DNA of 7,075 bases, taken from a bacterium (GTDB taxonomy: Bacteria > Krumholzibacteriota > Krumholzibacteriia > LZORAL124-64-63). Below, in pieces: positions 1,967-7,075 of the stretch. The notes below the pieces were generated by a model, which was not told the DNA's origin, did not search any database, and saw only the letters and a list, made by a program, of their open reading frames with translations. The stretch is taken from NCBI GenBank assembly GCA_018652925.1, contig JABIBH010000053.1, forward strand, positions 1 to 7,075, given 5' to 3'. The translations under genes were made by a program, and so were the position numbers. Every line of letters begins with the position of its first letter. Position 1 is the first letter of the stretch.

Positions 1967-2064
1967 ACGGGCCCACTAGTATGTTCGGGGTCCATTTGTA
2001 TGTTAAAGAGTATAGCTGAGACCGATTTACGGCCAGTATATGCTCACGAATGAGGAAGTGTCTC
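1967..2064 (+). promoter_or_regulatory. Long 5' leader of the RRM gene, with a possible hairpin and the ribosome binding site
   Basis: No gene is visible between 1913 and 2064. If the promoter at 1932-1960 is right, about 98 nt of untranslated RNA precede the TTG start. GGGCCC (1969-1974) can pair with GGGTCC (1988-1993, one G-U pair) around a 13-nt loop. TGCTCACG occurs at 1962-1969 and 2041-2048, and GTATGTT at 1979-1985 and 1998-2004; such short repeats could be chance. GAGGAAG at 2052-2058 is a good Shine-Dalgarno sequence ending six bases before TTG 2065, and it decides the start. Long leaders are common on genes for cold-induced RNA-binding proteins, but no known cold box or riboswitch was recognised. 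Confidence 0.35.
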
Positions 2065-2337
2065 TTGAAGATTTACGTAGGTAACCTGAATTTCCGTTCA
2101 ACTGAAGAAACCGTAACTGAATTATTTTCAGCTTTCGGTGCAGTTGAAGAAGTCGCATTAATCACTGACCGTGATACTGGCCGCCCTCGTGGCTTCGGTT
2201 TTGTCACTATGACAAACGATGACGAAGCTAAGAAGGCAATCGAAGAGCTTAACGGCAAAGACTTCGAAGGTCGCGATTTGAACATTAACGAGGCTCGTCC
2301 TCGTGCTCCACGTCAACAACGTGAGCCACGCTGGTAA
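2065..2337 (+). CDS. Small single-RRM RNA-binding protein, TTG start
   Basis: A 90-residue single RNA recognition motif protein of the type found in cyanobacteria and many other bacteria, where members bind RNA and are often induced by cold. RNP2 is KIYVGNL (residues 2-8) and RNP1 is RGFGFVTM (42-49), with the RNA-stacking aromatics present at Y4, F44 and F46. ALITDRDTGRPRGFGFV matches the classic loop before RNP1. After the domain comes a short basic tail rich in Arg, Pro and Gln. TTG 2065 is chosen as start because GAGGAAG lies six bases upstream and because family members begin MKIYVGNL; the in-frame ATG at 2050 would add five residues and overlaps that ribosome binding site. It is probably transcribed alone, between its own promoter and a terminator. 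The RNA targets are unknown. Confidence 0.92.
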   Translation: MKIYVGNLNFRSTEETVTELFSAFGAVEEVALITDRDTGRPRGFGFVTMTNDDEAKKAIEELNGKDFEGRDLNINEARPRAPRQQREPRW

Positions 2338-2388: not shown

Positions 2389-4065
2389 TCATCGAGTGAG
2401 TTTTTTGTATTGGATTCTGTGAGGCGTATCTGCGTCCTGGCCCAACCGTTCTCTGCGATCCCGCTCATAGTCACTATAGTTACCTTCAAACCATTGGACT
2501 TTGCTATCGCCCTCAAAGCTGATAATGTGTGTTGATATCCTGTCCAGGAACCAGCGATCGTGACTGACTACAACAACACATCCGCCAAATTGCAGCAGTG
2601 CATCTTCCAAAGCACGAAGCGTATCAACATCAAGATCATTTGTAGGCTCATCCAGGATAATCAGATTGGCTCCACTTTTAAGCAGCTTGGCAAGGTGAAC
2701 TCTATTACGCTCGCCACCACTTAAAACTCCAAGTTTCTTCTGCTGATCAGCACCTCGGAAATTGAACCCTGAACAATAAGCTCTGGACTTTACTTTCCTA
2801 CCACCCAAGTCCAGCTCTTCTGCCCCACCTGAAATTTCTTCCCAAACAGTTCTTTCATCAGACAGGTCGTCGCGGAACTGGTCGACATAAGCCATATCAA
2901 CTGTTGAACCAATCTGCAGATTACCTGAGTCGGTCTGCTCTGCACCGGTAATCAGTTTCATCAAAGTAGTTTTACCTGCACCGTTGGGGCCAACAACTCC
3001 AACAATGCCACCTTTCGGCAGATCGAATGAAAAGTTTTCAAATAACAATTTGTCGCCATACTGTTTTTTAACATTTTCAGCTCGAACAACCACATCACCA
3101 AGACGCGGCCCGGCAGGCAGAATAATCTGAGATTTACTCTGCTGCATCAACCTGTCTTTAGTGACCATGTCTTCGTATTGTGAAATTCTGGCTTTACTCT
3201 TTTTATGACGAGCTTTGGGTGCTGTGTTGATCCACTCCAACTCCCGTTCAATAGTTTTGCTTCTGGCATCATCCTGTTTCTGCTCCAGCAACATCTTTTC
3301 CTGTTTCTGCTGCAGCCATGAAGAATAGTTGCCCTCCCATGGCACACCATATCCTCGATCAAGTTCAAGCACCCAGCCAGTTACATTGTCCAGGAAGTAG
3401 CGATCGTGAGTTACAATGACAACTGTTCCTTCATATTCTCTGAGATGCCTCTCCAACCAGGACACCGATGCAGCATCCAGGTGGTTTGTTGGCTCATCAA
3501 GCAAAAGCATATCCGGTTTCTCAAGTAGCAGTTTACACAATGCAACTCGTCTGACTTCACCACCGGAGAGTGTTTCCACTACAGAATCTCCTGGTGGGCA
3601 GCGTAAAGCATCCATAGCGATATCAAGCTGGCGCTCAATTTCCCAGCCATTGCATGCATCAATCTTGTCTTGTACTGCTGCCATCTGTGCCATCACTTTT
3701 TCCATGGCATCCGGTTCCATCGGCTCACACATTTTTGTTGAAAGTGCATTAAACTCATCGAGCATTTTTACAGTCTCGCCAAGACCTTCTTTTACATTCC
3801 CAAGCACATCTTTCGATTGGTCAAGCACAGGCTCCTGAGGCAGAAAACCTACTGAAATACCATCTGCGGCATATGCTTTGCCTTCAAACTCTTCATCCAG
3901 CCCTGCCATAATTTTAAGCAGTGAACTTTTTCCAGAGCCGTTCAGGCCAACAACACCAATTTTGGCGCCCGGCAAAAAGCTCAACCAGATTTCGCGTAGA
4001 ATCTCTCTATTTGGCGGGACTACTTTACGAATCCCCTGAAGTGTGAATACATACTGTTGTGACAT
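2389..4065 (-). CDS. ettA: Energy-dependent translational throttle protein EttA (ABC-F ATPase)
   Basis: EttA binds the ribosomal E site and, depending on the ATP/ADP state, gates entry into the elongation cycle. The 558-residue product is close to E. coli EttA in length (about 555) and order of parts. First ATPase domain: Walker A GLNGSGKS (40-47), signature LSGGE (166-170), Walker B LLLDEP (187-192), H-switch H220. The insertion around 90-135 corresponds to the arm domain. The linker around 240-320, with WEGNYSSWLQQK and a basic KARHKKSKAR stretch, corresponds to the P-site tRNA-interaction motif. Second ATPase domain: Walker A GPNGAGKTT (359-367), LSGGE (448-452), Walker B LIILDEP (468-474), then SHDRWFLDR. 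Both sites look catalytically intact. ATG 4065 is preferred over the in-frame ATG at 4077 because GGAG (4075-4072) lies six bases upstream and overlaps the longer start. The gene ends in TGA. It has no membrane domain, as expected for ABC-F. Confidence 0.96.
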   Translation of the reverse strand: MSQQYVFTLQGIRKVVPPNREILREIWLSFLPGAKIGVVGLNGSGKSSLLKIMAGLDEEFEGKAYAADGISVGFLPQEPVLDQSKDVLGNVKEGLGETVKMLDEFNALSTKMCEPMEPDAMEKVMAQMAAVQDKIDACNGWEIERQLDIAMDALRCPPGDSVVETLSGGEVRRVALCKLLLEKPDMLLLDEPTNHLDAASVSWLERHLREYEGTVVIVTHDRYFLDNVTGWVLELDRGYGVPWEGNYSSWLQQKQEKMLLEQKQDDARSKTIERELEWINTAPKARHKKSKARISQYEDMVTKDRLMQQSKSQIILPAGPRLGDVVVRAENVKKQYGDKLLFENFSFDLPKGGIVGVVGPNGAGKTTLMKLITGAEQTDSGNLQIGSTVDMAYVDQFRDDLSDERTVWEEISGGAEELDLGGRKVKSRAYCSGFNFRGADQQKKLGVLSGGERNRVHLAKLLKSGANLIILDEPTNDLDVDTLRALEDALLQFGGCVVVVSHDRWFLDRISTHIISFEGDSKVQWFEGNYSDYERDRRERLGQDADTPHRIQYKKLTR

Positions 4066-4095
4066 TTTATTCTCCATTGTTTAAGGTCGGCGCAC

Positions 4096-4173: not shown

Positions 4174-6774
4174 TTATTTTACCATAACCATTCTGACTGT
4201 GGCCTCGTGGCTACCAGACTTCAGATTACAGAAATAAACACCAGCAGAGACAGTTTTTCCACTATCATCGGTGCCGTTCCAAACAACAGAATTCAGACCA
4301 GCTGCTTCAACTACACCATTCTTGAGAGTGGTGATCAAGCTACCGGAAACATCATACAACTTCAGAGTTACTTCGCCAGCCTGTGGCAGTTCATAACTGA
4401 TTGTTGTTGATGGGTTGAATGGATTTGGATAGCACTGATGCAACGCAAATCTCGATGGTGCCGGATCAACAGCACTTGGTCCGCCACCCTGATTCACATT
4501 TATCAACTGATCAACTGCAGCAACAGTTACATCAGTAGTTCCTTCGCCTGGCCAGTAAACAGTCATAGCATCAACTGTTGTAGCAGCTCCCAATCCAAAG
4601 TGAAGCATAAGTGGAGCCTGTGACAAGTAACCTGTGCTTGTGGTGACTTCACGAACCATTGTGCGGCCACCGGCTGTAACAGTAACTCTGGCACCAACAG
4701 CTGATTTATTAACAGTATCGCCAGTCAAACTAACTTTGAGCCAGTGATTACCATTATCAACACCATTAACAAGCAGTACATTCTGACCGTTGTCATTTGC
4801 TACATAGGCATCCAGCTTACCATCGTCATTGAAATCAGCCCAAGCCATACCGTTGGCATTGCCACCAGTTTCATTCACGCCAAGAGCCACTTCAACAAAA
4901 GTACCGGCATCGTTACGCAAAATTCTGTCGTACTGACCATGCTTGGCCAGATACAGATCCAAATCACCATCGTTGTCAAAGTCACCCCATGCAACACCTT
5001 TGGTGTTACCGGTATCACCTAATGGTGCGCCAATTTGCTGGTTGAATGAACCACCGTGATATTCACAGAATATATCGGCAGCTCCATCATTGGCAAAATA
5101 GAGATCCATATCACCGTCATTGTCGTAGTCGCCCCATGCAGCACCAGTTCCGCGGCCAATATTTGGCAGGGCACCACTACCGGTTGCATCGAAGAATCCA
5201 TATTGAGGATCATTGTCAAAGAGGAGATTTGCACCGAGGTAATTAACAACAAACAGATCATGATCGCCCTCATTATCATAATCCGACCATACACCAGTCA
5301 TTCCTGGTCCGGAGTCAGCAACAGTTGCACTACCAGCAAGGAATATCCATTGGCCGATGCCAGGATCACCATAAGCGTGGAAAAGTTTATTGTCGGTACC
5401 ATTGTTGACAAGATAGAGATCAAGCAGTCCATCGTGGTCATAATCGACCCATGAAGCGCCCATACCTGCGTCAACATTATTCAAGCCGTATGAAGTTACA
5501 CTTGAGAAAACGCCACCATCGTTTGTCAGCAGAACATTTGCCAAGCCGTCTTTGGACAAGTATGCATCCATGTCGCCATCGTTATCATAGTCAGCCCATG
5601 TAACAGCACGACCGGCACCTGTGTCACCCAACAACGTTCCACCAGCTATATTCGTAAATGAGCCACCGTTATTCTCGAGTAGCATGTCAGCAACGCCATC
5701 GCGTATGACATGGATATCGATGTCACCATCAAGATCATAGTCAATTGCAGCAACACCTTGAGCTGAACCGGCATCGCCAAGTTCACCAGTTGTATCAGCA
5801 GCGAATAATCCACCAGTGTAGTAACCGGCAAAATCGATTTCGCCATCTTCAACAAGAGTTTGAATAGTTGAAACTGGTGTTGGTGTTTCCCAATATTCAA
5901 CATCCAACCATGTCAATGTGTAGTCGCCGGCTGTGAATACAAACATAGAAGCATCGCCAGTACCATTCATATCAAACCCTTCAGGGCCTGAAAGATGCCA
6001 GGGAGCAGACAAACCGTTCGGGTCTGTATCGACATTCACGACTCCAGCGTAATCTGCTACAGAATATGTAGCCTGTAGAACATCATGAGGATTTGTTTGG
6101 TCTTGAACAAACACTACAACTCTAACATTTTCTGTAACCCATCCAGCATCCAGTGTAAAGTCTCGAGTAACTACCTGCGATTCACCTGGTCCGCTAATAG
6201 TTAATGGTTCAGATGCCAAAACTACTCTAGCCATATTAATCTGATCATGGGCGTAGTTTTCAATTACAACAAACTCAATGTCATAATTTCCTGAAGGAAT
6301 TGCTTCAGTTGATTGAATGTTCACTGATACTGAGCCTTGATTCCCAATATTCGTATATGCTGCCATTATTTCCACAGGGCTTGGAACGGCAACCCTGCCT
6401 TGAACCATCGGGTCATATGTATCAAACATAGAACCACTTGGATAGCCACCAACAGATCCTTCTAGACCATCAAACATAGCACTTGGAGTTCCACTGAAGC
6501 CGTACCAACTAAACCTTTGGCTCGATTCAGGAATGTCATATCCCCCGTTGAGATACCAGCTGATGCAAACAAAATCATCGCCATAAAGTTCATAAAGATC
6601 TTTCATACCGCGAACTGCGGATGGGCAGTAAGGTCAGCCATCTTCAGTGAATAATTCGCCCAATACAGCGCGAGGTGAAGCATCGGCAATTGTTGGAAAT
6701 GATACAGCTCCAACAATCAGCGCAAGCAAAAACAGCACAAAACTTGTGCGTGCGAAACTAGAGATGCCCTGCAT
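4174..6774 (-). CDS. Secreted selenoprotein: Sec-containing thioredoxin-fold (Omp28-like) head, VCBS repeats, ASPIC/UnbV, sorting-type tail
   Basis: Read from ATG 6774 through one in-frame TGA (6636-6634) taken as selenocysteine, the product has 866 residues. Residues 1-32 are a signal peptide (hydrophobic core about 12-24, probable cleavage after ADA). Residues 35-105 form a thioredoxin-like domain resembling Omp28 family proteins: RAVLGELFTEDG, then U47-P-Y-C50, then the cis-proline motif SGTPSAMFDG (P97). A beta-rich region (about 132-240) and a PEGA-like region (about 243-319) follow. Seven VCBS/FG-GAP repeats of about 50 residues carry acidic loops starting at 345, 395, 444, 498, 549, 598 and 647. 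ASPIC/UnbV spans about 675-761, and the last 90 residues contain CYPNPFNPSTTISYELP, a FlgD-like or type-9-sorting-like tail. AAGGAG lies seven bases before ATG 6774; the downstream ATG 6606 has no ribosome binding site and would delete signal peptide and active site. The likely role is an exported thiol/selenol redox protein; the substrate is unknown. A TGC-to-TGA mutation or read error is the main alternative to Sec. Confidence 0.82.
4771..5757 (-). repeat. Seven in-gene VCBS/FG-GAP repeat units of about 150 bp
   Basis: The DNA repeats imperfectly with a period near 150 bp because the protein repeats every 49-54 residues. Each unit contains an aspartate-rich loop of the form DYDNDGDMD, a pattern likely to bind calcium in a beta-propeller-like or beta-integrin-like fold. 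The sixth and seventh loops have F in place of Y, the seventh also has N in place of the second D (DFNDDGKLD), and the third loses one acidic residue (DYDHDGLLD). These are coding repeats, not a mobile or CRISPR structure. Confidence 0.9.
6604..6636 (-). promoter_or_regulatory. Candidate bacterial SECIS element and its UGA codon
   Basis: The TGA is at 6636-6634. Downstream on the mRNA, CATCCGC (6623-6617) pairs with GCGG (6611-6608) and, after one bulged U (6607), with ATG (6606-6604), giving seven base pairs and a five-base loop AGTTC (6616-6612). There are 17 nt between UGA and the loop, and G is the second loop base; both fit the known bacterial SECIS rules (16-37 nt, G in the first two loop positions), and the spacing is that of E. 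coli fdhF as I recall it. UGA is followed by C, a weak termination context. A competing hairpin, ACTGC (6629-6625) with GCAGT (6618-6614), is possible. Confidence 0.6.
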
Positions 6775-6781
6775 AAAAAAG

Positions 6782-6787
6782 CTCCTT
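6782..6787 (-). promoter_or_regulatory. Ribosome binding site that sets the selenoprotein start at 6774
   Basis: AAGGAG on the - strand, seven bases before ATG 6774. It is one of the best Shine-Dalgarno matches in the window and places translation initiation 46 codons upstream of the in-frame TGA. Confidence 0.88.
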
Positions 6788-6808
6788 AGGAAACAAATTG
6801 AGTTATTC

Positions 6809-6837
6809 TTGGCGGGTTCGAACTATTATTATATCAT
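6809..6837 (+). promoter_or_regulatory. Putative promoter of the flavoprotein gene
   Basis: TTGGCG (6809-6814, 4 of 6) and TATCAT (6832-6837, 5 of 6) are 17 bp apart. Its -10 overlaps the -10 of the divergent selenoprotein promoter, so the two could compete for polymerase. Consensus match only. Confidence 0.4.
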
Positions 6838-6856
6838 ATTCAACGGATAATTGAAA
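6828..6856 (-). promoter_or_regulatory. Strong extended -10 promoter for the selenoprotein gene
   Basis: On the - strand the -10 is a perfect TATAAT (6833-6828) preceded by TGA, giving TGATATAAT, an extended -10. A weak -35, TTTCAA (6856-6851), lies 17 bp upstream. Transcription would begin near 6821, leaving a leader of about 47 nt. Confidence 0.65.
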
Positions 6857-6884
6857 CAGTTTGCAACCCAAGGATTGGAAATAA

Positions 6885-7075
6885 ATGCTTCCTGAACAAA
6901 TAAATACGGTAATAATTGGTGGTGGAGCGTCTGGATTGATGTGTGCGGCAACAATTGGTTCCGATGCCTTACTTTTGGAACACAATGATCAAACCGGTAA
7001 GAAAATCAAAATTTCCGGTGGAGGACACTGTAATTTCACCAATCTGGAAACAGGTCCGGATAATTATATCTCCCA
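6885..7075 (+). CDS. BaiN/HI0933-family flavoprotein, N-terminal fragment cut by the window end
   Basis: Start of an NAD(P)/FAD-dependent oxidoreductase-like flavoprotein of the HI0933/YhiN/BaiN family; 63 codons are visible and the frame stays open to the end of the window. The dinucleotide-binding motif VIIGGGASGLMCAA is at residues 9-22, an acidic residue ends the second strand (LLLEH), and GKKIKISGGGHCNFTN matches the family hallmark, usually GrKilisGgGRCNxTN, with His in place of the common Arg. The start is ATG 6885 with AAGGA ten bases and GGA five bases upstream. It is transcribed divergently from the selenoprotein gene with 110 bp between the starts. The physiological reaction of most family members is unknown; a bile-acid role is known for only a few gut bacteria and should not be assumed here. 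Confidence 0.9.
   Translation, partial: MLPEQINTVIIGGGASGLMCAATIGSDALLLEHNDQTGKKIKISGGGHCNFTNLETGPDNYIS

Follow-up and report, generated by a model that had tools for sequence, protein, structure and literature searches.

A conserved in-frame UGA, predicted to be read as selenocysteine, in an Omp28-type protein of Krumholzibacteriia with FG-GAP, ASPIC and T9SS-type parts

The interrupted frame and its domains

A long frame on the minus strand of the window (the whole stretch of 7,075 nucleotides that was analysed) is interrupted by one TGA, which raises the question of whether this codon ends a broken gene or is decoded, and if so as which amino acid. The original prediction placed the interruption at 6634..6636 and proposed selenocysteine (Sec), and reading of the frame (4174-6774, minus strand) confirms a single TGA, at codon 47 of 866 codons followed by a TAA stop. 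The codon is very probably read as Sec, in a predicted secreted protein which joins an Omp28-type domain bearing the motif U-P-Y-C to FG-GAP repeats, an ASPIC domain and a predicted T9SS tail, and the comparative evidence set out below makes Sec decoding in itself close to certain. The features of the locus are as follows.

4174..6774, minus strand: predicted selenoprotein gene including the UGA; 866 residues plus a TAA stop, UGA read through
6782..6787, minus strand: Shine-Dalgarno-like AAGGAG ahead of the ATG at 6774 (sequence)
6676..6774, minus strand: hydrophobic, signal-peptide-like leader, residues 1-33 (by eye; similar leaders in orthologs)
6634..6636, minus strand: in-frame TGA, codon 47, the U of U-P-Y-C (frame reading, orthologs, thioredoxin alignment)
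6625..6627, minus strand: Cys50, second residue of the U-x-x-C pair (invariant in 24/24 of the alignment)
6608..6620, minus strand: bSECIS-like hairpin CCGC-[AGUUC]-GCGG; loop starts 17 nt past the UGA, with G as its second position
6484..6486, minus strand: Pro97, predicted cis-Pro of the thioredoxin fold (invariant in 24/24 of the alignment; structure alignment)
6010..6684, minus strand: Omp28-type thioredoxin-like domain (NF045500 positions 35-280 of 377, below cut-off)
4951..5130, minus strand: FG-GAP repeat, best of six stretches; predicted beta-propeller (PF13517, 112.4 bits)
4501..4701, minus strand: UnbV/ASPIC domain (PF07593, 65.5 bits)
4186..4431, minus strand: C-terminal T9SS type A sorting domain, overlapping FlgD_ig (TIGR04183; Por_Secre_tail)

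In the window translation, the hydrophobic leader and RAVLGELFTEDG lie upstream of the UGA, and PYCPSAVRGMKDLYELYG downstream. P97 lies within SGTPSAMFDG, 50 residues past Sec47, which bears out the proposed cis-Pro motif at about that distance. The Pfam scan placed FG-GAP (six stretches), UnbV/ASPIC and FlgD_ig above their cut-offs and Por_Secre_tail at 27.3 against 27, while the T9SS type A sorting domain of NCBIfam (TIGR04183) scored 35.3 bits against a cut-off of 23. The Pfam Omp28 model (PF11551) gave the window protein 28.5 bits, below the gathering score of 34.9.

Conservation of the UGA and of its column

Orthologs were sought with a profile built on residues 1-330 in 80 genomes of the phylum, a match above 400 bits being taken as an ortholog. 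The gene was found in 29 of the 80, all within one family and 11 genera; these are 29 of the 38 genomes examined in that family, and the profile search of the remaining nine assemblies gave no match above 400 bits. Every ortholog has exactly one TGA in frame and none has the Cys form, the TGA column being identical across 29 distinct sequences within a motif that is always U-[PT]-[YF]-C. The copy in a genome of the same genus (G001) is 82% identical and likewise has one TGA, and a whole-protein search of 58 genomes recovered near-full-length orthologs with one TGA apiece. The frames of the 29 orthologs are otherwise open, so that the breaks at other positions expected of a decaying pseudogene, which had been named as grounds for rejecting Sec, are absent. 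A chance TGA, already judged unlikely in the original prediction, is ruled out by this conservation, every one of the 29 orthologs from 11 genera having it in one column.

The residues ahead of the UGA are also conserved in frame: R35, V37 and L41 are identical in 29/29 orthologs while their third bases vary, indicating that the region before the UGA is translated in frame and under selection. A comparison of the same region in the closest ortholog pair covers too few codons to be strong.

If the UGA were a true stop, the locus would be either a broken gene or two adjoining proteins, the second starting from an internal ATG at 6606. The protein databases appear to support this, as a search of 5.8 billion proteins returned 22 matches to the window protein, none of which extends back to the UGA or reaches the Sec column, and CPYC is absent from the first 80 residues of each; the database copy of the window protein (P0002) begins at ATG 6606. 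Headless copies are nevertheless the expected outcome where a UGA is taken for a stop, and their starts are scattered, with 21 of the 22 aligning from residue 57 to 277 onward and one aligning only at 777-866. A Shine-Dalgarno-like sequence stands ahead of the ATG at 6774 and none stands ahead of 6606. Taken with the single TGA in one column of 29 otherwise open frames, and with the conserved residues in front of it, this makes a true stop very improbable.

The column itself corresponds to a redox position. Sec47 falls on the leading Cys of the CPYCP motif of 1nho (E 1.6e-5) and of CPHCP in 1fo5 (E 1e-4), and SGTPSAMFDG aligns with the corresponding proline region of both, in agreement with the earlier assignment of the TGA to the first Cys of a CxxC motif. 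The proposed check for homologs with C or UGA in this column found both, UGA in all 29 orthologs and Cys in distant relatives. A scan of named genomes yielded 31 loci, with TGA in the column at 26 (22 of which are the same sequences as the phylum-genome orthologs and so are not independent evidence) and Cys at five (L099, Cloacimonadota; L100, 'Euryarchaeota'; L101, Rikenellaceae; L104, Bacteroidales; L105, Alienimonas). A genome of the same class, G037, encodes a related protein with Cys (CGYCP, 148.4 bits). A profile search from a mixed alignment of nine sequences matched four proteins, one already known and none named, while tblastn of phage sequences with the window protein gave no match.

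The contigs of the named-genome scan carry a variety of titles. Many are titled Candidatus Krumholzibacteriia or Krumholzibacteriota and others 'bacterium' or 'uncultured bacterium', while three that carry the same gene as genomes of the window's family are titled Latescibacterota (L081), Fibrobacter sp. (L083) and Gemmatimonas sp. (L084), titles which may be outdated or wrong.

Other Omp28-like frames with Sec-type motifs were also seen. A Candidatus Stahlbacteria contig (L102, position 1050) has an Omp28-like frame with U-P-F-C, and L097 has two Sec-Omp28 frames (3112 and 5124) with U-A-F-C and U-V-F-C, each followed by a hairpin with a loop of 5 nt. Krumholzibacteriia also contain a second class of Omp28-type proteins of about 660-710 aa (L163 in G013, L164 in G021, L112 in G028 and L144 in G037), their Sec lying in motifs like TWU-V-Y-C and TGU-T-Y-C, with Cys instead (CGYC) in G037. 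Proteins of this class have a FlgD/T9SS tail, FG-GAP and ASPIC being absent in the four scanned, and G013 contains two such genes near each other.

The hairpin after the UGA and the decoding machinery

The retrieved text of PMC13188914 describes a bSECIS model with an apical loop of 3-9 nt, a G in its first two positions, an upper stem of 4-16 bp, a loop lying 16-37 nt past the UGA and a minimum free energy no higher than -7.5 kcal/mol. In the window the distance from UGA to loop, measured in its sequence, is 17 nt. All 29 orthologs form a stem of 4 or more uninterrupted base pairs closing a loop that begins 17 nt past the UGA and has a G as its first or second base, in agreement with the loop, stem and spacing values of that text. 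The energy term gives a mixed result, as three of the seven isolated hairpin forms pass -7.5 kcal/mol (-7.8, -8.6 and -9.0) and four miss it (-5.6, -6.4, -6.9 and -7.3), the window form being the weakest (4 bp, -5.6 kcal/mol). Minimum-energy folding of nt 10-40 past the UGA gives this hairpin in 28/29 orthologs, and folding of nt 10-45 gives it in 17/29, the window included in both. With the UGA and 45 nt folded together it forms part of the minimum-energy fold in 13/29, the window not among them, its own UGA plus 45 nt reaching -8.3 kcal/mol through a different fold.

The loop has 4 nt (GGUC) in 24 of the 29 orthologs and 5 nt in the other five, the window included. In the latter the Ala55 codon GCG is replaced by CGC (Arg) or AGC (Ser), and a one-base shift preserves the same CCGC/GCGG stem. 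These two stem registers, which keep the hairpin despite the residue change, amount to a small experiment of nature on the requirements of SelB. Across the 24 rows with a loop of 4, 98.6% of cells are paired and six are doubly changed, with changes on both sides at two pairs, the outermost (U-A, C-G, G-C) and one further in (C-G, U-A). The covariation score of these rows was matched by 0/500 shuffles, while 10/500 matched their number of doubly changed pairs and 322/500 their number of pair types. The other row set, the 24-row alignment that includes the five loop-5 rows and lacks the five added rows, is 87.5% paired with one doubly changed pair, a number reached in 282/500 shuffles; the loop-5 rows, including the window, break the loop-4 pairing there. 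A gene-wide control weighs more than the shuffles, because related sequences can beat shuffles through kinship alone, without structure. Among 847 codon columns, at least 90% of rows had such a hairpin only at the Sec codon and at the six codons preceding it, all of which detect this one hairpin, the loop lengths of 4 and 5 having been chosen post hoc for this control. Third-base entropy shows only a modest drop over residues 48-56, too slight to carry weight, with a mean of 0.78 (8 columns) against 1.12 (sd 0.46, 177 columns) elsewhere. The hairpin is absent from the more distant Sec-type relatives L102 and L103, and an Rfam scan of 5800-7075 returned a single weak snoRNA match (E 4.1), away from the hairpin.

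A search for selA, selB, selC and selD in the same genome, which had been proposed as a check, was borne out for three of the four. The window's genome encodes SelA (371.9 bits), SelB (367.2 bits) and SelD (347.1 bits), all above cut-off, and the SelD gene (L152:878-1939, plus strand) has an in-frame TGA at GUAAK, so that SelD itself is likely a selenoprotein. For the fourth, no tRNA-Sec above the gathering score was found in the assembly, which is 75.7% complete. Three matches to the tRNA-Sec model in this genome were rejected, being tRNA-Trp (the best), tRNA-Tyr and tRNA-Leu by ARAGORN. In the same-genus G001 there are two tRNA-Sec matches of 64.3 bits, called tRNA-SeC by ARAGORN, which made the same call for three others tried. 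Scores above the tRNA-Sec gathering score occur in 52 of 58 genomes, G001 included, and those near the limit are not specific, because the Rfam model also passes that limit in 5 of 14 control genomes. SelB is above cut-off in 54/58 genomes (and in 2/14 controls) and SelD in 58/58.

These genes also bear on a changed code, under which UGA would specify an ordinary amino acid in the window's genome, and for which the open frame speaks and nothing more. Two further window genes end in TGA (924-926 and 2389-2391), as the original prediction had argued, the genome encodes SelA, SelB and a Sec-type SelD, and TGA is confined to the redox column in the 29 orthologs. A reassigned UGA is thus extremely improbable, and Sec decoding, supported by the homologs, the sel genes and the intact frames, is the reading retained here.

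Relatives, export and a possible function

The original prediction knew of no described family with Sec in this setting, a claim that holds in part. Sec in an Omp28-type domain is already known from NF045500/GOS_C, while searches of open-licence literature turned up no account of the Krumholzibacteriia subfamily or of its FG-GAP/ASPIC/T9SS-tail architecture. GOS_C is described in the retrieved text of PMC2398784 with 74 Sec sequences, 312 Cys homologs, a Trx-like fold, a UxxC motif and a bSECIS-like element, and Table 1 of PMC13188914, in the portion retrieved, equates GOS_C with NF045500, likewise with UxxC, among 119 families and subfamilies. As far as these texts go, the protein described here shares with that family a fold of the thioredoxin type, a UxxC motif led by Sec, homologs with Cys and a bSECIS-like element. 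The domains are homologous, the NF045500 model matching 24/24 N-terminal domains, and one might regard the window protein as an ordinary member of the family, new in sequence alone, with the UxxC motif agreeing with the PMC13188914 entry. This is rather unlikely, as the score is 69.5 bits for the whole protein or 72 bits for the domain against a cut-off of 200, the match is limited to model positions 35-280 of 377, and none of 58 genomes has an NF045500 match above that cut-off. Relative to the NF045500 model and the retrieved text on GOS_C, FG-GAP and ASPIC parts and a T9SS tail appear to be added, and the host is Krumholzibacteriia.

The literature searched (open-licence) contained no paper on a selenoprotein with Omp28, and papers apparently on other subjects only for a selenoprotein with VCBS, FG-GAP or type IX secretion. 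Among the papers listed by broader literature searches, none beyond those cited here dealt with this family. Krumholzibacteri together with selenocysteine or selenoprotein retrieved only PMC8674449, which in its retrieved portion names the phylum solely in the reference list and selenoprotein genes for other bacteria only, while the sought terms gave no match in the deep-Sep paper PMC12013277.

Three other groups share parts of the protein. The Omp28 outer membrane (lipo)proteins (PF11551/NF033782) have a related domain but carry Cys where Sec is found here, and the window protein scores 26.4 against 150 for NF033782. The window's genome has two adjacent Omp28-like Cys genes of its own on contig C120 (L151:3-902 and L151:899-2386, both minus strand), with the pairs SCGPC and NCLGC and no TGA. 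The MJ0307-type small thioredoxins (1fo5, 1nho) align in the CPxCP active site and the SGTPSAMFDG region, but are 85-residue Cys proteins without further domains. Surface proteins with ASPIC/UnbV and FG-GAP, which we take to be CRTAC1-like, share the FG-GAP repeats and ASPIC domain and have many paralogs across the 58 genomes; among the matches listed, however, their alignment starts after about residue 200 of the window protein and they have no internal stop.

That one protein combines a hydrophobic leader with a UxxC domain of the thioredoxin type and a T9SS tail suggests an exported selenol/thiol oxidoreductase, although both the surface location and the chemistry of the Krumholzibacteriia selenoprotein are predictions inferred from sequence. 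SprA is above cut-off in 36/38 genomes (471.1 bits in G001, together with its neighbours in the frame) and a DsbD-type membrane domain is present in 37/38 (156.8 bits in the window's genome), so that members of the group have a route for export and a possible donor of electrons. We know of no test of export by T9SS-type tails in the phylum Krumholzibacteriota.

With Sec inserted as proposed, the tail might still not be used by the type IX system, and the protein would then be an ordinary thiol-disulfide oxidoreductase of the periplasm. The tail also matches FlgD_ig, and SprA in the window's genome is represented by a 32.8-bit fragment only, which are points in favour of a periplasmic protein; the TIGR04183 score above its cut-off and the occurrence of SprA in nearly all genomes of the set, G001 included, count against it. 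We regard a periplasmic location as somewhat doubtful, if conceivable.

For a surface-exposed selenoenzyme, the ribosome would pause at the UGA, and the hairpin would be bound by SelB with Sec-tRNA for Sec to be inserted. After leaving through the general export route, the protein would be carried across the outer membrane by the type IX system, remaining at the surface. The selenolate of Sec47 might there attack a disulfide or peroxide substrate (the substrate is a guess), with Cys50 resolving the intermediate, electrons coming from a DsbD-type membrane protein or an outside thiol, and the propeller part holding the enzyme to its substrate or to the cell surface. We tentatively propose, as a possibility held at somewhat less than even confidence, that Krumholzibacteriia display on the cell exterior a selenoenzyme in which a Sec thioredoxin head (never Cys, in 29/29 genomes) sits on an FG-GAP/ASPIC propeller anchored by the type IX route, this being one among several Sec-Omp28 lines of the class. 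The protein adds a large, predicted surface-exposed architecture to the bacterial selenoproteins, and the retention of Sec in all orthologs across 11 genera, against Cys in related domains, recommends it for studying the role of Sec outside the cell.

The gene neighbourhood, compared at 18 loci from 16 genomes, has no neighbour conserved throughout. Within the window, 2050-2337 (plus strand) presumably encodes an RRM-type RNA-binding protein and 2389-4077 (minus strand) what we take, by sequence, to be an ABC-F-like ATPase, and an ABC-F-like gene adjoins the selenoprotein gene in three loci (the window, L006 and L158). A flavoprotein-like frame at 6885-7073 (plus strand), named by eye and with GGGASGL near its start, is divergent from the selenoprotein gene, as it is in the same-genus locus L006.
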